This document shows positions 3,014-24,211 of a stretch of DNA of 24,211 nucleotides, piece by piece. Origin of the DNA: a virus; the IMG/VR virus record IMGVR_UViG_3300010157_000245, positions 1 through 24,211 of that record; one strand, given 5' to 3'. How positions within the stretch are numbered: the stretch's first letter is position 1; every line of letters starts with the position of its first letter. The position numbers and the translations under genes were made by a program. A model generated the notes under the pieces. It made no database searches and was not told the DNA's origin. It saw only the letters and a list, made by a program, of their open reading frames with translations.

Positions 3014-4321
3014 ATGTCATATACTCTAAATAAAACTAATGGTGCTGTACTTACAGTAGTACAAGATGCATCAGTTGACCTAAGTACCGATTTAAAATTT
3101 CTAGGTAGAAATTATGCAGGTTATGGTGAATTTCAAAATGAAAATTTTATAAAATTATTGGAAAATTTTGCCAATACATCAGAACCACCAAAGCCAATTG
3201 AGGGTCAAATTTGGTACGATACAGCTAATAAACAATTAAAAGTTTATGATGTTACTGCATGGAAAGGTGTTGGAAATATTGATGTTAGTTTAGATAATCC
3301 TTCAACTATTAGAAATCCCGCACGAGGTGATTTGTGGTATTATACAGCTGGTGAGCAGTTATATGCGTACAATGGATCTGAATATACATTAATTGGACCT
3401 CCAACGGGCGCAGATACACAAGCTGGATGGAGAGGCGATTACGAACAATCTACCATTCAACCAAATGTTCCAATTTACAATATCAAAGCAGTTATAGGTG
3501 CTGATATAATTGCAACAGTATCGGCCGACGAATATATATTGCAAAATGATACAACTGGAAATAATTATCCATTATATGCTGAGCAGTCTCCACCAAAAAA
3601 ATTGTATAAGGGTATAAATTTATCTGATGCACACCCTACAACTGGAATTTCTGCAACATTTAATGCCAGTACATATGCATATACCGGCGGTACTATATTA
3701 TGGGGAACTGCTGCTCATGCAATTGCGGCATCAACTGCCACCGTTGCAGGCGGTATAAGCAATCAAGTAAACACAACTACTTCTGGATATTTTCCAGTAT
3801 CTTTTGTTGTAATTGATCCTGCAACGTCTTCTTCTGGTATAACTACAGTGGTAGGTAAAAGTAGCGTAAGCTGGGGATTTAATTATAATCCATCTACTAA
3901 CTATGTACAAGCAACTAGATTTGAAGGTATTGCAACTAGTGCATTATATGCTGACCTTGCTGAACGATACGAAGCAGATGCGGTCTATGAAGCTGGCACC
4001 GTTTTAGTAATTGGCGGCGATAAAGAAGTCACAGTAACCACTAGATATGCTGATACAAGGGTAGCGGGCATAGTGAGTAAAAACCCAGCCTATATGATGA
4101 ATTCTGCGGCAGGAACTGACGAAACTCATCCCTATATTGCCTTAAAAGGTCGAGTTACGTGTAAAGTTATAGGTCCTATTATGAAAGGTGATCTATTAGT
4201 AACAAGCGCACATCCAGGGTATGCTACAACTACCACTCATCCAGAAATAGGAACCGTAATAGGAAAAGCCCTCAAAGGTTGCTCCGAAGGCTTTGGTACT
4301 ATTGAAGTGTTGGTAGTCTAA
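3014..4321 (+). CDS. Tail fibre-like structural protein, third member, with C-terminal DLAERY domain
   Basis: A 435-aa protein. Residues ~25-130 repeat the shared module (FLGRNYAGYG, FIKLLENFANTSEPP, GQIWYDT, GDLWYYT, YTLIGPP). The last ~120 residues start with ALYADLAERYEAD and continue through AGTVLVIGG, VAGIVSKNPAYMMN, ALKGRVTCKVIG and GDLLVTS. I recall this DLAE-type ending from fibre proteins of marine phages; it may act in folding or trimerisation, but I cannot name a family safely. A good ribosome binding site (AAGGA) lies nine bases before the ATG. The gene ends stop to stop with thyA, the two stop codons sharing bases, and no terminator hairpin separates them. Confidence 0.75.
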   Translation: MSYTLNKTNGAVLTVVQDASVDLSTDLKFLGRNYAGYGEFQNENFIKLLENFANTSEPPKPIEGQIWYDTANKQLKVYDVTAWKGVGNIDVSLDNPSTIRNPARGDLWYYTAGEQLYAYNGSEYTLIGPPTGADTQAGWRGDYEQSTIQPNVPIYNIKAVIGADIIATVSADEYILQNDTTGNNYPLYAEQSPPKKLYKGINLSDAHPTTGISATFNASTYAYTGGTILWGTAAHAIAASTATVAGGISNQVNTTTSGYFPVSFVVIDPATSSSGITTVVGKSSVSWGFNYNPSTNYVQATRFEGIATSALYADLAERYEADAVYEAGTVLVIGGDKEVTVTTRYADTRVAGIVSKNPAYMMNSAAGTDETHPYIALKGRVTCKVIGPIMKGDLLVTSAHPGYATTTTHPEIGTVIGKALKGCSEGFGTIEVLVV

Positions 4322-5193
4322 ACAGCCATTGGTGCTTTGATTGCTGCATAGCAATTGTAGTTAACTAATTTAATATCATCCATTGTGAATTTAGAGATAT
4401 CTAAAATATCTTCATTAAGGATTAATGATGGAAATTCTAAAGGTTCTCTAGTTAACTGCTCTCTAACTTGTTCCAAATGATTTTCATATATATGAGTATC
4501 ACCAAAGGATATAATTAGTTCGCCTACTGACAGATTGCATACTTTTGCAATCATGTGAGTGAACAAAGCATAGCTAGCAATATTAAACGGCACTCCGAGA
4601 AACATGTCTGCACTACGCTGATACATGTGGCAACTTAATTTACCATTGCTTACATAGAACTGCGCCATCATATGGCAAGGTGGTAATGCCATTGATTCTA
4701 ACTCGCCGGGATTCCATGCACTAATAATATGTCTACGTCCGTATGGATCTTTTTTAATACCATTAATCAATGTTTGTAACTGATCTATATGCTTAACTGC
4801 CATACGATTTGCACCAAACACCGGAGCACGCCATTGTCGCCATTGAACACCATATACTCGACCCAAGTCGCCTTTGAATCTTGCTTTTGGTTTCCAATAG
4901 TCTGCACTAGCATTTTCAGACCAAATAGTATTTTCTGTGCTATTACGGCTACCGTGTAGTATTTCTTTTAGACGATTCTCATCTCCGCTACCTTCAATAA
5001 ACCATAACAGTTCACTAACAACTGATTTCCAGGCTAACCGTTTTGTGGTAATTGCTGGAAATCCTTGTTGTAGGTCAAATTTTAATTGTAGTCCAAATTT
5101 ACTAATAGTTCCAACGCCGGTGCGATCCGGGCGATGTTCACCTGTTTCTAAAATTTCTTTTAGAAGAGTTAGATATCCTTGTTCTTGATGCAT
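4318..5193 (-). CDS. thyA: Thymidylate synthase
   Basis: Converts dUMP to dTMP with methylene-tetrahydrofolate, supplying thymidine for phage replication. The 291-aa protein is collinear with bacterial ThyA: an early DRTGVGT motif, the catalytic PPCH (Cys about 173), QRSADMFLGVPFNIASYA with the dUMP-selecting Asn at about 204, GDTHIYENH, and the typical IKAPMAV terminus. The Asn argues against dCMP hydroxymethylase, the related enzyme that carries Asp there. I place the start at the ATG at 5193, two bases after the stop of the upstream gene; the frame could open six bases earlier with TTG. It is the last gene of the minus-strand block and converges on the tail genes. Confidence 0.95.
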   Translation of the reverse strand: MHQEQGYLTLLKEILETGEHRPDRTGVGTISKFGLQLKFDLQQGFPAITTKRLAWKSVVSELLWFIEGSGDENRLKEILHGSRNSTENTIWSENASADYWKPKARFKGDLGRVYGVQWRQWRAPVFGANRMAVKHIDQLQTLINGIKKDPYGRRHIISAWNPGELESMALPPCHMMAQFYVSNGKLSCHMYQRSADMFLGVPFNIASYALFTHMIAKVCNLSVGELIISFGDTHIYENHLEQVREQLTREPLEFPSLILNEDILDISKFTMDDIKLVNYNCYAAIKAPMAV

Positions 5194-5195
5194 TA

Positions 5196-5843
5196 TCAAG
5201 CAATCTCAACAGACTTTTTTGATTTTGTTTCTTTTGCTTTGGGAGGATCAATAGCATCTGCCATTCTACGGAAATTAGCAGCATCTTTTGCCAGCTTGTC
5301 AGCTTTGGAGCGATATTGTTTTGCTACTAGTACTGGATCAGAAATGTCTTCACTAGATTCAGCAACTACTGATTTTACTGTAGTATGAATTACTTCATCT
5401 GTTGTAATGATTTCTTCCTTACCACGAGTTGTTTCTGTGGGTTTTTGACTTCCATCGGACACTGCTAGGTCTTCTATTTTAATTCCCTTTTGAGTAGCAA
5501 TCAGTTGATTGACCTCATTTAGTGGAATAGCAGTTTTATTGTTTGGAGTCATTAGCACAATGTTAGTTGGAACTTTTTTAAGGTGCCCATTGGAATGTAG
5601 GAATTGCAACATAACAGTTCCGTCGGGAAAGCGTCGCACGGCTAATACATCTGCAAGTTCATTGGCTTGTTGTCCAGCATCGCTTTCAATCAAGCTCATT
5701 AATGAATCGTGATATGAATCAGTTAATCCGTTGGTTCCTACCACTAATGCGTTAGCAGGCTCTCCGGGCAAAGCCCGGTAAACAACCGCAACTCTTGCTG
5801 AATTGTTCTTCATTTTTCCTACATGTTTTGTATCGTTAGCCAT
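5196..5843 (-). CDS. Conserved phage protein of unknown function with C-terminal coiled coil
   Basis: A 215-aa soluble protein with a strong ribosome binding site (AAGGAGA, six bases before the ATG). The N-terminal ~125 residues look folded and carry VAVVYRALPGEPANALVVG, DSYHDSLMSLIE and RRFPDGTVMLQFLH. The middle is Thr/Glu-rich and probably disordered. The end (about residues 170-205) is Lys/Ala-rich and likely a helix or coiled coil. I recall similar proteins in marine T4-like phages but know no function. It lies between small unknown proteins and thyA, with TGATAATG joining it to thyA. Confidence 0.75.
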   Translation of the reverse strand: MANDTKHVGKMKNNSARVAVVYRALPGEPANALVVGTNGLTDSYHDSLMSLIESDAGQQANELADVLAVRRFPDGTVMLQFLHSNGHLKKVPTNIVLMTPNNKTAIPLNEVNQLIATQKGIKIEDLAVSDGSQKPTETTRGKEEIITTDEVIHTTVKSVVAESSEDISDPVLVAKQYRSKADKLAKDAANFRRMADAIDPPKAKETKSKKSVEIA

Positions 5844-19103: not shown

Positions 19104-21776
19104 TTACTCGAAGTCGAATAACGACCCGAATACATTTGTTTGTGTTGTGGATGCTAGATCCCATTCAAGTACGCCAATAAGATTATCAAGTTTATTATTA
19201 ATAATAACTGCTTCCATCTCAGCATGATCAAATGGTAGGTCTTGAAACCATTTAGGCAATCGCATTTCGTCTACCGGATATGCAACACTTGTATAACCTA
19301 ACGGGTTATCTTTCATTTTGCATACAATAACTTTCATGCCGTCAACAATGTTAGTGCTGTATTTGTCACCATTCATTCTTTTGAGCGTATTCCAATTAAT
19401 ACTTGCTCTAACATGACCAGGCATATTTGCCTTGCCAGCTTTCTTCTCTTTATCTTGGTATTCAGCAATATTGTTGGCTCGCTTGGGGCTACCTTTTTCC
19501 CATCCGGGTCTTGCTTTAAATATAGCACGAAACTCATTAATCATCTCCAATATTTCTTTTTCCCCAGCACCGTTGAGCACTTTGGTTAATACTTCTTCCA
19601 AGAATTTCTGCATAAATTCAGGAGTATCACTACGTTTCAAATCTAAACCCATTGCTTTAATTTTTCCAGGTTTAGTTTCGCTGTCGTATCTCTTACCGTC
19701 TTTGTCGTAATACAATACCGCATAACGTTTCTTGGTAATAAACAATCCTTTGATAGCAACAATTTCACGCCCGGCTTTAATAACTTCTCCACGTGATTTG
19801 GGACAATGAAATCCATCAAGCATCATTTGTGGAAATGTTGCATTAACATTATCTGCAATAGTATTATACAACTGAATAGCAACATCCTTATCCCACGGAA
19901 TAAGTTTCTTCTGAATTTCAATTTTCAATGTATTGTATGCTGAGAAATAACACGAGTCAGTATCACCATAGATAATACTCTTACCTACGTGATCAAACTC
20001 ACCTGTGATAATTTCATTCACCTTACCGGCCATATGTTTGGCAATAGCACGACCTGTTAGAGTTGTACTTTGTCCAATACGCTTGTCAAAGAATCTGCAG
20101 CCTGGATTTAGAATAGCACCGTACAAACTATTCAAGTTAATCTTCTTGACCAGTTGTCGTTTATCCCAATATTCTTCTTCAATCTTATTGCCAGCATCAA
20201 TTGCCGCTTTAAGTTTCTTCTGCATATCCTTACGTTCGCTATACCAACGAGCAAGTAGGCCGGGAATAATACCTTCCTTTTCGTGAGTAAAAATAGTACC
20301 ATTAGCACTGAGCATCCATGGCTGATTACTTTCGTATATTAGTCTGTACACTTCAGCAGCACTTAGTACATCCTTCTCACCGTTCTCCCAATCAATAGTA
20401 ATATCGTAAGCAATATCTTTTCTCATTACTGCTTCGTATTCGTCACTACCAAATTTACCTTCCCACGACAATGCAAATGTTTTCTTATGCAATGTCATCT
20501 GTTCATGGATAAATTGATCTGTGTTATCTTGCCGCAACTGTCCAACAATAGTTTCTGGACCCATATTCAATGCACGAATAACACTTGGATACAAACTGTT
20601 AATATCCATAGATCCAATGTAGTCGTGCAGGCCCTTTTTAGGATATGCAACATACGCACCTGCTGCTTGGAAGACTTCACTTTCATCACGTTTGGCCCGG
20701 CTTGGAACAATTAGTCCTCTGCGGTGGGCTTCATTAACAATTGCTTGTTCAGTAACTGCCACAGCACCCATTGTTGTTTGTAACAACACAGTACATTCAT
20801 GTGCCAGCGTATTTGCTAGGTCAATGAATTTTAATTTCTTATCTAACTTATCAAGCAATGCGGTATCTTGTCTATTATATTCAATAAACTTTCGAAAGTC
20901 ATTATTGTATAACTGATCCAGTGTACCTTCGTATACAGTTTTACTTTCGCCTACCTCCATTTCTCCGATTGCATCCAGTCTATACGAGTGTCGTTCCTCG
21001 TATGTATATTTCCGGTACAGCTCGAGACTATCCAAATGAACACGACCAATAAGATCGTAAGTAACAGCCTGTTTTCCATATTTCTCGTATTCTCGTTTCT
21101 TAGGAAACTGATCCCACAGACAAAATCTCCGTGTATCTTCTTTGCTTAAAACTTTAATAACACGGTTAACAGTATAAGGAATATCAAATCCTTCACTATT
21201 CCATCCGCTCAAAATATCTGCATCTTGAATCAAATCTAAGAAAGCATCTAACATTTCTCCTTCTGTTTCAAACAATATTGTGTTAGGAAAGTCTTTAACT
21301 TGTTCTTCTGCCTGCGCCATAGTTAGTGTCTTTGGCGGTACAGCAAAACATACCAATGTCTCTAACCATTGTAGGTGAACAGCAATTGCAGTAATTGGCA
21401 TAAAAGCATCTTCAGGAGTGCTATAGCCACGTTCTGGATCAAAGTCCACCTCAATGTCGAAAAATGCTACATTTAGTTTTGGAGCATCAATTCCGAGATA
21501 ATGATCTTCAAGGCAGCGGAATGCTGGTTTGATATCGCTTTCGTATAATTTACGATCGCTATGAATCCTTAGTTCTTTTTGGAAGTCCTTGTTATTTCTA
21601 CAAGTTACTTTGCTAAGATTTTCACCGTGGATTGATTTGTACTTGCCCTTGGGGTCTGGGTAGTAAAAGATGTATTTTGCAGGATACTCTTGATAGAGTC
21701 TGCCTTTTTTTGGATCTCGTTCAACAACTTTGATAATATCTTTGTCGCGATCCCACATTGCGTCAACATATGACAT
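19104..21776 (-). CDS. 43: DNA polymerase, family B (T4 gp43-like)
   Basis: Replicative polymerase with proofreading exonuclease, 890 aa (T4 gp43 is 898). Exonuclease motifs: FFDIE at ~105-109, NSEGFD at ~193-198 and YNRQD ending at ~304. Polymerase motifs: DINSLYPS at ~391-398, KKINLNSLYG at ~544-553, YGDTDS at ~603-608 and ITKKRY further on. The C-terminal GSLFDFE resembles the clamp-binding tail of gp43. I chose the ATG at 21776 because AAGGAGA precedes it with correct spacing; an upstream in-frame GTG would add ten residues without such a site. All catalytic residues seem intact. Confidence 0.97.
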   Translation of the reverse strand: MSYVDAMWDRDKDIIKVVERDPKKGRLYQEYPAKYIFYYPDPKGKYKSIHGENLSKVTCRNNKDFQKELRIHSDRKLYESDIKPAFRCLEDHYLGIDAPKLNVAFFDIEVDFDPERGYSTPEDAFMPITAIAVHLQWLETLVCFAVPPKTLTMAQAEEQVKDFPNTILFETEGEMLDAFLDLIQDADILSGWNSEGFDIPYTVNRVIKVLSKEDTRRFCLWDQFPKKREYEKYGKQAVTYDLIGRVHLDSLELYRKYTYEERHSYRLDAIGEMEVGESKTVYEGTLDQLYNNDFRKFIEYNRQDTALLDKLDKKLKFIDLANTLAHECTVLLQTTMGAVAVTEQAIVNEAHRRGLIVPSRAKRDESEVFQAAGAYVAYPKKGLHDYIGSMDINSLYPSVIRALNMGPETIVGQLRQDNTDQFIHEQMTLHKKTFALSWEGKFGSDEYEAVMRKDIAYDITIDWENGEKDVLSAAEVYRLIYESNQPWMLSANGTIFTHEKEGIIPGLLARWYSERKDMQKKLKAAIDAGNKIEEEYWDKRQLVKKINLNSLYGAILNPGCRFFDKRIGQSTTLTGRAIAKHMAGKVNEIITGEFDHVGKSIIYGDTDSCYFSAYNTLKIEIQKKLIPWDKDVAIQLYNTIADNVNATFPQMMLDGFHCPKSRGEVIKAGREIVAIKGLFITKKRYAVLYYDKDGKRYDSETKPGKIKAMGLDLKRSDTPEFMQKFLEEVLTKVLNGAGEKEILEMINEFRAIFKARPGWEKGSPKRANNIAEYQDKEKKAGKANMPGHVRASINWNTLKRMNGDKYSTNIVDGMKVIVCKMKDNPLGYTSVAYPVDEMRLPKWFQDLPFDHAEMEAVIINNKLDNLIGVLEWDLASTTQTNVFGSLFDFE

Positions 21777-21793
21777 ATTTTCTCCTTGATGTG

Positions 21794-21847: not shown

Positions 21848-22138
21848 TTAATTACTTATCATTCTAAACAAGCCTACACTATCAATTGCTACTAACAAAC
21901 AATAGTTTGCCAACATGCCAAACGATTTACGACTATAAGCAGACCAGCCGTAAATAATGCATTGGCTAATAAAAATAGGATACAATATAATAAGAGGCGG
22001 ATTAGGGACAGTGAGTGCCATAGTGACTGAACATCCGATACTAAGTGTCCAAGCCGTAACCTCCAGGATAAAACGAAGAGGGTAAACTTTATAGTCATCC
22101 TTAATCCACTTAAAAATATTAATTAATATTTCATTCAT
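21848..22138 (-). CDS. Small integral membrane protein
   Basis: A 96-aa protein with about three membrane spans: FILEVTAWTLSIGCSVTMAL (residues ~23-42), PLIILYPIFISQCIIYGWSA (~48-67) and MLANYCLLVAIDSVGLFRMI (~75-94), with positive charges between. No transporter motif is complete enough to name a substrate. Similar short proteins are known to me from marine T4-like phages. It overlaps the DsbA-like gene by eight bases, so it is translated with it, and it directly precedes the polymerase gene. Confidence 0.7.
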   Translation of the reverse strand: MNEILINIFKWIKDDYKVYPLRFILEVTAWTLSIGCSVTMALTVPNPPLIILYPIFISQCIIYGWSAYSRKSFGMLANYCLLVAIDSVGLFRMISN

Positions 22139-22403
22139 CAGTTCGTCGATGTGAATGTCCGCTGATATCTACGATAGTTTCAAGATCATCAAACTCTTTG
22201 TATACTTGATCCCATTGATCTTTTTGTGCAATGCGTATTGCTTTTTTGATTACACTGGGCTTAACCTCGAGTTCCTCTGCTACTGCGGCAATAGTTTCCT
22301 TTAATCCTTCTGTAAGATCCTGAATTTCCTGCATAACAGTCATGCCCTCTGCAACGATTTGTTTAATTTTGGCCTGTTCGGGCGCTCCAAATGCTTTACT
22401 CAT
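22131..22403 (-). CDS. dsbA: DsbA-like double-stranded DNA-binding protein (late transcription)
   Basis: A 90-aa protein close to T4 DsbA in size (89 aa) and layout: a helical N-terminus (KIKQIVAEGMTVMQEIQDLT), then LKETIAAVAEELEVKPSVIK, similar to the GELxVDGKMFN region, and an acidic end (VYKEFDDLETIVDI). T4 DsbA binds double-stranded DNA and aids late transcription; it is not the thiol oxidase of the same name. I chose the ATG at 22403, which has a perfect AAGGAG seven bases upstream, over one 36 bases earlier. Its ribosome site lies in one arm of a 10-bp inverted repeat and a promoter lies in the loop. Confidence 0.62.
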   Translation of the reverse strand: MSKAFGAPEQAKIKQIVAEGMTVMQEIQDLTEGLKETIAAVAEELEVKPSVIKKAIRIAQKDQWDQVYKEFDDLETIVDISGHSHRRTDE

Positions 22404-22408
22404 AAAAA

Positions 22409-22445
22409 ATCTCCTTGTAAGTAAGTATATACTACACAAGGAGAT
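22409..22445 (-). repeat. 10-bp inverted repeat covering the dsbA-like ribosome binding site
   Basis: ATCTCCTTGT (22409-22418) and ACAAGGAGAT (22436-22445) are perfect inverted copies with a 17-base loop. In RNA read through from the upstream gene, the arm with AAGGAG is base-paired; six U follow, so the same structure could also terminate transcription. The -10 box lies in the loop, so transcripts starting there lack the blocking arm. Confidence 0.85.
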
Positions 22446-22452
22446 AAGTCAA
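22424..22452 (-). promoter_or_regulatory. Sigma70-type promoter of the dsbA-like gene
   Basis: TTGACT (22452-22447), a 17-base spacer and TATACT (22429-22424) on the minus strand, five of six matches in each box. The expected start near 22417 leaves a very short leader that begins at the ribosome binding site. Confidence 0.75.
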
Positions 22453-22461
22453 ATGTTTATT

Positions 22462-23004
22462 TTATAAACGAGCGTCTACAATGTTCCAGTTAATTATCTT
22501 CCAATGATTGGTTAGATAACCTTTTTTGTCTGCTTGATAATCCAAAACCCACGAATGTTCCCACCAATCTATTAACAAGACAATGTCATTCTTAATTTGA
22601 TGATTGACGATAGTTTTAATCTCACCGTTCTTAGCAAGATACAGCCAACCGCTGCCCTGAATACCCATAGCAACTTTGGTAAATTCATCTTTGAAATTGT
22701 CAAATGATTTAAAATGTTTATCAATGAATTCTTTAGATGCACCTATTGGCGCATTTGCTTCGTCTGAGATTTGCAGTTGTGGAAAATACATACTATGTAA
22801 GTATGCACCTGCTTCGTTAAAATCTAAATCACCTTCGCCTGCATTAAACCGATTAACATAAGTTCTATATAACTTACCATAGTGATAATCTATTGCATCT
22901 TCACTTAGGCAAGGCTCTAAAGCATCGCGAGCATAGGACAACTTCACTTGCTCAAGTTGTTTAACTTCTTTACTTTCAACAACGTATTTTATAAAATTAA
23001 ACAT
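22462..23004 (-). CDS. Iron/manganese superoxide dismutase-like protein
   Basis: Converts superoxide to oxygen and peroxide if active. The 180-aa protein follows the Fe/Mn-SOD pattern: DYHYGKLYRTYVNRFN with ligand H41, AGAYLHSMYF with H70, IQGSGWLYL, and DWWEHSWVLDY with D146 and H150, so all four metal ligands remain. It is somewhat shorter than the usual ~195 aa, and the second-shell His in KHHxTY is replaced (KLYRTY), which may change activity. It has no signal peptide, so it would act in the host cytoplasm or be packaged. No strong ribosome site precedes the ATG. Confidence 0.85.
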   Translation of the reverse strand: MFNFIKYVVESKEVKQLEQVKLSYARDALEPCLSEDAIDYHYGKLYRTYVNRFNAGEGDLDFNEAGAYLHSMYFPQLQISDEANAPIGASKEFIDKHFKSFDNFKDEFTKVAMGIQGSGWLYLAKNGEIKTIVNHQIKNDIVLLIDWWEHSWVLDYQADKKGYLTNHWKIINWNIVDARL

Positions 23005-23029: not shown

Positions 23030-23320
23030 TTAGCAGTTCCACTTTCTTAACGCCAATGCTTTGCGTGTTGGATCACCATTGGGTTTTTTCATAGGACCAT
23101 CAACGCCACTCATTCTTGCGCAGAATGATTTACGACGTTTAGCATCTTTGCTACCTGCTTTTAATTTGCTGGGCTTAGTAGTTACTGCTGTTTGCAATTT
23201 GCTACCTGGATGCTCTCTACGATAACTAGCAACGCCTTTGGCATTTAGTCCGCCAGATTTACTTTTGCCGGCTTTGCGATGCCAGGCAGCGGATTCATCT
23301 ATAAACTCGTATGCTCTCAT
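23030..23320 (-). CDS. Small basic protein, probably DUF6321 family
   Basis: A 96-aa, very basic protein. After a short acidic start (MRAYEFIDE) it has AAWHRKAGKSKSGGLNAKGV, ASYRREHPGSKLQTAV, then KRRKSFCARMSGVDGPMKKP and DPTRKALALRKWNC. The GGLNxKG, SFCARMSG and LxKWxC segments are typical of DUF6321 proteins, which are common in marine phages. High Lys/Arg and two Cys suggest DNA binding, not shown. Its ATG overlaps the stop of a 17-codon frame (ATGA). Confidence 0.75.
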   Translation of the reverse strand: MRAYEFIDESAAWHRKAGKSKSGGLNAKGVASYRREHPGSKLQTAVTTKPSKLKAGSKDAKRRKSFCARMSGVDGPMKKPNGDPTRKALALRKWNC

Positions 23321-23370
23321 TGTTTCTTAATCTTAGGTTGACGGGCTTTATATAGCGCCGCTGTTGCCAT
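23317..23370 (-). CDS. Possible 17-residue gene or frameshift extension
   Basis: The frame encodes MATAALYKARQPKIKKQ. Its ATG overlaps the upstream stop (TAATG) and its stop overlaps the DUF6321-like start (ATGA), the coupling pattern used throughout this strand. It has no ribosome site of its own. It may be a real tiny gene, or the -1 frame tail of the upstream protein reached at the A-run at 23383-23374, or a gene split by a one-base homopolymer error. Confidence 0.35.
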   Translation of the reverse strand: MATAALYKARQPKIKKQ

Positions 23371-24211
23371 TACTTTTTTTTTTCGGGAGTCTTATTTTTG
23401 AATTGGTGATACTTTTGTGGATCAGCATTTTGGAAGTTATAATTCCAAGCATCTAAATCCATAGTAGGTTCCAATTGTCTCTCTAACATAACATTAAGTG
23501 ATTCCATATAAGAATCACCTTCTACTGCACTCTTATTGTTTAGTCTATATCTTGAGCTAATAGTGTTCTTTCTAAAATCACTATCTTGTTTATACATTTT
23601 ACCACCTTTGGTAATTCTATTCACCGGTTCTTTTCGACTTAATCTATCATACGCTTGAGAGTGATCTTGACGAGGAAAGTGCATCTTATTTGTGCCTGCT
23701 TCTACCTTGTTGGCAATGTTATCACCAAACTCTTGTCGAATCTGATCTAAAACTTCATCAGGATCGTAGTGATCGTTAACACCGTAGCCGTCGTCGGCTG
23801 GATCAGTAGCATCTCTATAAGTATCAATTAGGTGATCTAATCTTGCTCGCTGATCAGGATCCATGCCTTCCGCCACACCTTGCCCTTTTAAGCCACGAGT
23901 GGCTGAATTTAAACTGCTTAAACTTACACTGCGAGTCGCATCGTTGTTAAAGATTAGATCAACACTAAATGGCCTACCGTTCTTATAAAAATGCAATTCG
24001 TTGCTGGTTGTTTTGAAATGATCTGCACCGTGATGACGCAATACTTTCACAGCATCACTCATTGGTAAAGTTTCTGCTACGCCTTCCGCCACACCTTGCT
24101 CTTGAGGCTTTTTGAACACACTATATAGTTTTTGTGTATCAAAATCTTTTATACCATTGGCTCGTAATACATTTGCCACAAATGTTCCGCAATTTTCTGC
24201 ACCTACTGAGT
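23370..24211 (-). CDS. Unknown phage protein with QGVAEG repeats (5' end outside window)
   Basis: The frame is open to the right edge; a GTG at 24179 is only an internal candidate start, since SVGAENCGTF precedes it in frame. At least 280 residues are visible. QGVAEG occurs twice, each time at the edge of a different segment: first before VAETLPMSDAVKVLRHHG, a small folded unit, and then before MDPDQRARLDHLIDTY, a helical unit. The rest is charged and likely flexible (SRKEPVNRITKGGKM, LEPTMDLDAWNYNFQ, ending EKKK). Such a mosaic suggests a prohead or virion-associated protein, but I do not recognise it. Confidence 0.65.
   Translation of the reverse strand, partial: SVGAENCGTFVANVLRANGIKDFDTQKLYSVFKKPQEQGVAEGVAETLPMSDAVKVLRHHGADHFKTTSNELHFYKNGRPFSVDLIFNNDATRSVSLSSLNSATRGLKGQGVAEGMDPDQRARLDHLIDTYRDATDPADDGYGVNDHYDPDEVLDQIRQEFGDNIANKVEAGTNKMHFPRQDHSQAYDRLSRKEPVNRITKGGKMYKQDSDFRKNTISSRYRLNNKSAVEGDSYMESLNVMLERQLEPTMDLDAWNYNFQNADPQKYHQFKNKTPEKKK
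23373..23383 (-). promoter_or_regulatory. Slippery run A10-G at the end of the upstream gene
   Basis: The minus strand has ten A followed by G just before a TAA stop. This contains A-AAA-AAG, the slippery heptamer of E. coli dnaX, in the correct phase for -1 slippage. A stop codon lies directly after it in the zero frame, and the -1 frame stays open for the 17-codon frame. Confidence 0.45.
23865..23883 (-). repeat. Dispersed 19-base repeat, copy 1 (encodes QGVAEG)
   Basis: GCCTTCCGCCACACCTTGC on the + strand is identical to copy 2 at 24081-24099. Read on the minus strand in the same frame, it encodes QGVAEG. Flanking sequence differs between the copies, so the repeat is not part of a larger duplication. 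Confidence 0.85.
24081..24099 (-). repeat. Dispersed 19-base repeat, copy 2 (encodes QGVAEG, followed by a second GVAE)
   Basis: Identical in 19 bases to copy 1. Here the peptide continues QGVAEGVAE, so GVAE occurs twice in tandem, but the second copy uses different codons. Confidence 0.85.

Follow-up and report, generated by a model that had tools for sequence, protein, structure and literature searches.

A predicted promoter inside a hairpin that buries a phage ribosome site: a putative terminator, translation lock and promoter sharing about 50 bp upstream of a dsbA-like gene

How is the expression of a gene that leads a DNA polymerase unit controlled when the gene in front of it is highly variable? 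The question is raised by a stretch of 24,211 nucleotides, the 24-kb virus record IMGVR_UViG_3300010157_000245, which we refer to as the window. On its minus strand a small DsbA-like protein gene (22131..22403; 90 aa) stands first in a unit, with a small ORF and a T4 gp43-like DNA polymerase downstream (minus strand; annotated 19104..21779, the ORF reaching 21806). The DsbA-like protein matches phrog_12534 (E = 1e-16) and phrog_639 (E = 3e-7), the latter being the family of T4 DsbA, itself a strong member; beside the window protein's match at 3e-7, that of the phrog_639 profile to T4 DsbA alone is weak (probability 27%). The product's family is one of DNA-binding regulators. The linkage of dsbA to the polymerase is also found in the isolates PA5oct, Phosso, SCTP-2, Atu_ph07 and Vibrio phage 2.275.O. 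The closest dsbA homologues all come from uncultured sources and, judging by relatives (isolates of 285-490 kb), the source phages would be freshwater and jumbo-sized.

Upstream of dsbA and co-directional with it lies an Fe/Mn superoxide dismutase (SOD) gene (22462..23004, minus strand; Pfam Sod_Fe_C 6e-23, Sod_Fe_N 2e-11), although across 224 related IMG/VR loci the gene in this position is highly variable. The SOD-dsbA interval of the window and of loci L001-L080 is a variable cargo site, occupied in one relative or another by SOD, by GIY-YIG/HNH-like ORFs or by one of many unknown genes. Many different cargo proteins (upstream ORFs of L007, L027, L043, L045, L057 and others; window 23030-24179, minus strand) have in common an MRAxEF-like N-terminus, a basic tail at the C-terminus (e.g. 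HSSGEKQRMAHWLANMKAGRAKKK) or both, which looks like the reuse of a common tag; DUF6321 is one such protein. Elsewhere in the window a thymidylate synthase-like ORF (4318-5199, minus strand; translation read by eye only) adjoins tail-fibre-like genes on the opposite strand.

The sequence in front of dsbA reads, 5' to 3' on the minus strand, TTGACT-TATCTCCTTGTGTAGTA-TATACT-TACTTACAAGGAGATTTTTT-ATG. A -35 element TTGACT (22447..22452) and a -10 element TATACT (22424..22429), separated by a 17-bp spacer, are interleaved with two hairpin arms that are 10/10 complementary and spaced 17 nt apart: the 5' arm ATCTCCTTGT (22436..22445), which is an anti-Shine-Dalgarno within the promoter spacer, and the 3' arm ACAAGGAGAT (22409..22418), which holds the Shine-Dalgarno (SD) AAGGAG (22416-22411). 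Transcription is predicted from promoter geometry to start 6-8 nt past the -10 element, at 22416..22418, and a run of six T (22404..22409), the U-tract of a putative intrinsic terminator, reaches the dsbA-like ATG (22403-22401). An earlier note on this DNA had described the perfect 10-bp inverted repeat with AAGGAG in its 3' arm, TATACT in the loop and TTGACT 17 bp before it, and all of these are present on the minus strand as described. Its '17-nt loop' is right as the distance between the arms, but the fold consists of an outer stem, a one-base bulge and a 4-bp inner stem (AGTA, 22430..22433, with TACT, 22420..22423) closed by a 6-nt apical loop that is exactly the -10 hexamer.

This minus-strand fold has a z-score of -3.2, and opening the SD within it is predicted to cost 13.1 kcal/mol, compared with 2.8 +/- 1.7 kcal/mol for sequences in which the promoter spacer alone has been shuffled (p = 0.003). 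A leader beginning at 22417, the short RNA expected from the promoter, folds into no stable structure over the SD. The pattern of -35, CTCC and GGAG is expected 0.01 times per window of such composition. In a plain scan of the window, promoter matches numbered 14 against 14.5 expected, and the match alone is not significant; the promoter call draws its support from conservation in relatives and not from the plain-scan match. The plain terminator scan of the window does not list the dsbA hairpin site because its loop limit is 8, and none of the Rfam 15 families matched in the window at gathering score.

To compare homologous loci, we reduced the 224 related loci to 125 distinct 62-nt upstream sequences and analysed the 120 with clear boxes. 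TTGAC, its 17-bp spacing, TATAMT and a gap of 8-13 nt from the -10 element to GGAG are kept in nearly all 120, hairpin or not. The SD-opening cost is bimodal across these sequences (mostly 0-5 vs 8-15 kcal/mol); with a cost of at least 7 kcal/mol taken as hairpin-positive, a class set by threshold though on a bimodal distribution, 58 of the 120 are hairpin-positive, nearly all with p ~0.003 against spacer shuffles, and 62 are hairpin-negative. With the promoter near-universal and the hairpin present in about half, the hairpin is an addition to a constant promoter. On a tree of 120 rows built from dsbA and polymerase DNA the hairpin changes state at least 18 times on well supported branches, and such lability means that it is not essential. 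In most hairpin-negative loci the upstream gene is co-directional, and a search of the hairpin-negative loci for other terminators standing in for the hairpin mostly found none. Orientation of the upstream gene was considered as a cause of hairpin loss and rejected: the divergent cases (L004/L002, L020, L038 and SCTP-2) are all without a strong hairpin but too few for significance, and many hairpin-negative loci are co-directional. The related loci L004 and L038 have, upstream of dsbA, divergent ORFs and a shared hairpin GCCAGTGGATCTTGCCGGATCGCGATTGGC, with no strong SD hairpin.

Wherever the hairpin exists, its two arms co-vary. Arm pairs differ together among relatives (CTCCTTGT/ACAAGGAG, CTCCTGTG/CACAGGAG, CTCCTTAT/ATAAGGAG and others) and by clade (TTGT/ACAA, TGTG/CACA, TTAT/ATAA, TGTA/TACA). 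Since the MAFFT alignment (A1) shifts the arms in one clade, pairs were taken from SD-anchored positions and from arm swapping. The SD-anchored counts, which are drawn from minimum-energy folds and hence biased towards pairing by construction, contain several standard pair types at inner stem positions; in the alignment-free swap, the own 3' arm is matched by at least 8 Watson-Crick pairs in 38 of 58 cases, against 2.9% of other-class arms. The conservation of the arms as a pair, which the earlier note had asked for, thus holds where there is a hairpin, but about half of the relatives have lost the hairpin or never had it.

For SD burial the dsbA starts come top in about 400 kb of kin genomes: of 246 starts with an SD in the window and two related contigs, those of dsbA, three in number, take the first three places in SD-opening cost (13.4, 12.2 and 10.9, the median of the 246 being 1.5), and only these three join a strong hairpin to a promoter of 10/12 or better. 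An arm-pattern search of 12 long related contigs gave dsbA as the sole clear promoter-hairpin, with other matches barely above the reversed-pattern control. The arrangement of hairpin, promoter and SD upstream of dsbA is confirmed as real and not a product of chance.

That six U after the stem would permit termination after the SOD gene was also part of the earlier note, and the case is stronger than first stated, as hairpin and U-tract co-evolve. A T-run of at least five follows in 54 of 58 hairpin-positive loci but in only 3 of 62 hairpin-negative ones; of 18 independent pairs on the tree, 14 differ in hairpin and T-run in the same sense and none in opposite senses (p = 1.2e-4), and no T-run is found in hairpin-negative loci whose SDs are just as good. 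The d'Aubenton-Carafa score exceeds zero in 36 of 58 hairpin-positive sequences (+12.6 in the window) and in 0 of 52 hairpin-negative ones. The position of the upstream stop codon also differs between the classes: it lies 50 nt or less from the ATG in 2 of 57 hairpin-positive and 24 of 56 hairpin-negative loci (p = 3e-7; median p = 0.016 across independent pairs), with a median gap of 16 nt from stop to 5' arm, and the SOD stop codon (22464-22462) is 16 nt ahead of the arm in the window. The hairpin is thus almost restricted to loci in which the upstream stop precedes the arm, as a terminator requires, because translating ribosomes would otherwise melt the arm. We infer from these sequence comparisons that hairpin and U-tract of the window's clade form a putative intrinsic terminator. 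Like a Rho-independent terminator, it has a GC-containing stem and then, directly after this stable hairpin, a U-tract; in contrast to an ordinary one, it uses the Shine-Dalgarno of the following gene as its 3' arm and the -10 element of the following promoter as its loop.

We consider it likely, and the most economical account, that the dsbA-DNA polymerase unit is insulated by this fused element of about 50 bp, which would act as intrinsic terminator, as translation lock for read-through RNA and as promoter; what follows on its promoter activity, start site, termination, translation block and timing is prediction from sequence. RNA polymerase coming in from the gene upstream (SOD in the window) would transcribe both arms, and the hairpin would form and, with the U-tract, end most transcripts just ahead of the dsbA ATG. 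In RNA that escapes termination the SD would stay paired in the 3' arm, so that hardly any dsbA would be translated. The sigma70-type promoter embedded in the hairpin sequence, with its spacer encoding the 5' arm and its -10 element the loop, would start transcription just ahead of the SD, and the resulting leader of about 15-18 nt, which lacks the 5' arm, would be neither terminated nor blocked. With own-promoter RNA free and read-through RNA stopped or locked, dsbA expression would depend on its own promoter, whichever gene lies upstream.

Distant isolates and unrelated phage genes bear on how much of this is general. In PA5oct (protein about 46% identical), AACTCCGTT...AACGGAGTT surround TATAAT (z = -5.6), and Phosso has a GTTCC...GGAAC hairpin (z = -4.7); both have the same layout as the window in unrelated sequence, and neither has a U-tract, which implies that termination is not general. 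The PA5oct hairpin (L334:1420-1488) is lengthened by UCAUUG/CAAUGA, the start codon thus being paired with the -35 region. Upstream of dsbA, Atu_ph07 has neither hairpin nor U-tract, SCTP-2 has no SD hairpin and a divergent upstream gene, and Vibrio phage 2.275.O, without an SD hairpin, has a canonical GC-rich terminator upstream instead. We scanned viral contigs for TTGAC-N2-8-CTCCTT-N14-24-AAGGAG, with the reversed hexamer TTCCTC as control. Among the matches listed, outside dsbA, an ORF at the SD and a -10 element at 16-18 bp were found in 27 of 90 sites as against 3 of 101 control sites (p = 1.5e-7), and stems extend further in the CTCCTT set than in the reversed-hexamer set; an earlier scan with longer arms was concordant (11 of 42 SD sites vs 4 of 71 non-SD sites among the matches listed, p = 0.003). 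The genes preceded by this layout among the matches listed are unrelated (their products include a clamp-loader-type AAA protein, a dCMP deaminase, a metallophosphatase, a portal protein, an exonuclease, MazG and phosphatase-like proteins), and a co-directional ORF lies upstream in 28 of 31 of these sites by a simple longest-frame rule. A T-run accompanies the layout in only 3 of 27 such genes among the matches listed, making the terminator a special feature of the window's clade.

The PA5oct and Phosso hairpins, which hide the SD and enclose the promoter with no U-tract, and the scarcity of T-runs among those unrelated genes would also fit another reading, in which the hairpin only locks translation of read-through RNA, as in T4 e, soc and I-TevI (a class known experimentally in T4; PMC3014915), and the T-run is a mere linker between SD and ATG. 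In the window's clade, however, hairpin and T-run come and go together, a linker role does not sit with the T-less leaders of hairpin-negative loci whose SDs are equally good, and terminator scores are positive; we regard this reading as unlikely. The converse, that the hairpin solely ends the upstream transcript and SD hiding is a by-product of the SD serving as an arm, agrees with the U-tract co-evolution and the terminator scores, but termination cannot explain why an anti-SD arm is also present in PA5oct, Phosso and many unrelated genes that have no U-tract, and we hold this reading to be improbable. The scan suggests that an anti-SD within the promoter spacer is widespread in phages. We lean, if only slightly, towards the view that phages widely use sigma70-type promoters with an anti-Shine-Dalgarno arm in the 17-bp spacer, so that translation would proceed only from own-promoter RNA, and that in the window's clade the same hairpin also became a terminator.

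The switch that the earlier note had drawn from T4, in which dsbA would be kept silent by the hairpin on early read-through RNA and made a late gene by an internal promoter, stands in its structural part. Two reports (PMC3014915; PMC2988022) describe hairpins that hide the ribosome-binding site of T4 e, soc, 49, I-TevI, mobE and segB, with a promoter in the 5' arm: the long RNA hides the SD or AUG, and the promoter just upstream yields a short RNA without the 5' arm. As in those genes, a predicted helix in the long dsbA transcript sequesters the SD (z = -3.2; 13.1 kcal/mol), and a conserved internal promoter (TTGAC-N17-TATAMT, -10 in the loop) would give RNA lacking the 5' arm. The timing part finds no such support. 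The T4 cases are late genes with phage late promoters (gp55), some endonucleases having middle promoters, whereas the promoter here is of sigma70 type: in place of the T4 late promoter TATAAATA, nearly all relatives have TATACT and, at 17-bp spacing, a TTGAC -35 element. T4-type late promoters are not evident in kin genomes, where TATAAATA is rare, and linkage to the DNA polymerase argues against dsbA being a late gene. Although the anatomy resembles that of T4 gene e and I-TevI (PMC3014915 and PMC2988022) and T4 DsbA aids late transcription according to its database record, a temporal switch appears improbable to us; with a promoter unlike the T4 late type and with dsbA at the head of the DNA polymerase operon, shielding from read-through of cargo or structural genes is no less likely than a change from early to late expression. 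In one related contig (G001, locus L339, minus strand), three to four starts have near-consensus TTGACA-N17-TATAATACACACAT promoters with a common downstream box, probably a strong early promoter class of this phage group.

Very improbable, finally, is a DNA operator for a repressor, which might be the DsbA-like protein: a dyad centred on the -10 box, a product from a family of DNA-binding regulators and the G-U versus A-C counts (8 vs 11), which do not separate RNA from DNA symmetry, are compatible with it, but the arms differ by clade with compensatory changes, unlike a fixed-sequence operator, and neither the T-run nor the dependence on the upstream stop has a place in it.

The insulating element that we favour belongs to a class of mechanism already known from T4 e, soc and I-TevI and from the transposase genes of IS10 and IS50. 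In fold-back inhibition of IS10/IS50 transposase, read-through RNA folds and hides the transposase start, whereas RNA from the gene's own sigma70 promoter is without the upstream arm. The dsbA site is alike in that own-promoter RNA would escape a hairpin that locks read-through RNA; it differs in lying in a phage replication operon, in front of a DsbA-like gene beside DNA polymerase and not a transposase gene in a transposon, in the terminator laid over it and in having the arm within the -35/-10 spacer. It is set apart from the T4 hairpin genes by the -10 element as loop, by the U-tract that would make a terminator and by a gene heading a DNA polymerase unit. What is new is the sigma70-type promoter, the fused putative terminator and the scan for anti-SD arms in spacers.

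In these phages a putative terminator, a translation lock, a promoter and a ribosome site thus share one stretch of about 50 bp, and the comparative evidence points to hairpin and U-tract being selected together, mostly where upstream ribosomes stop in time. Because the hairpin has been gained and lost naturally, at least 18 times, its function is directly testable. If the wider pattern holds, annotation pipelines could predict phage genes that are insulated from read-through, the sequence of promoter spacers would have to be regarded as more than neutral, and ordinary reporter work in laboratory strains would gain an insulated expression cassette of very small size. For phages at large, an anti-SD arm in the promoter spacer would, if true, be a general and compact means of freeing mobile or modular genes from their neighbours.
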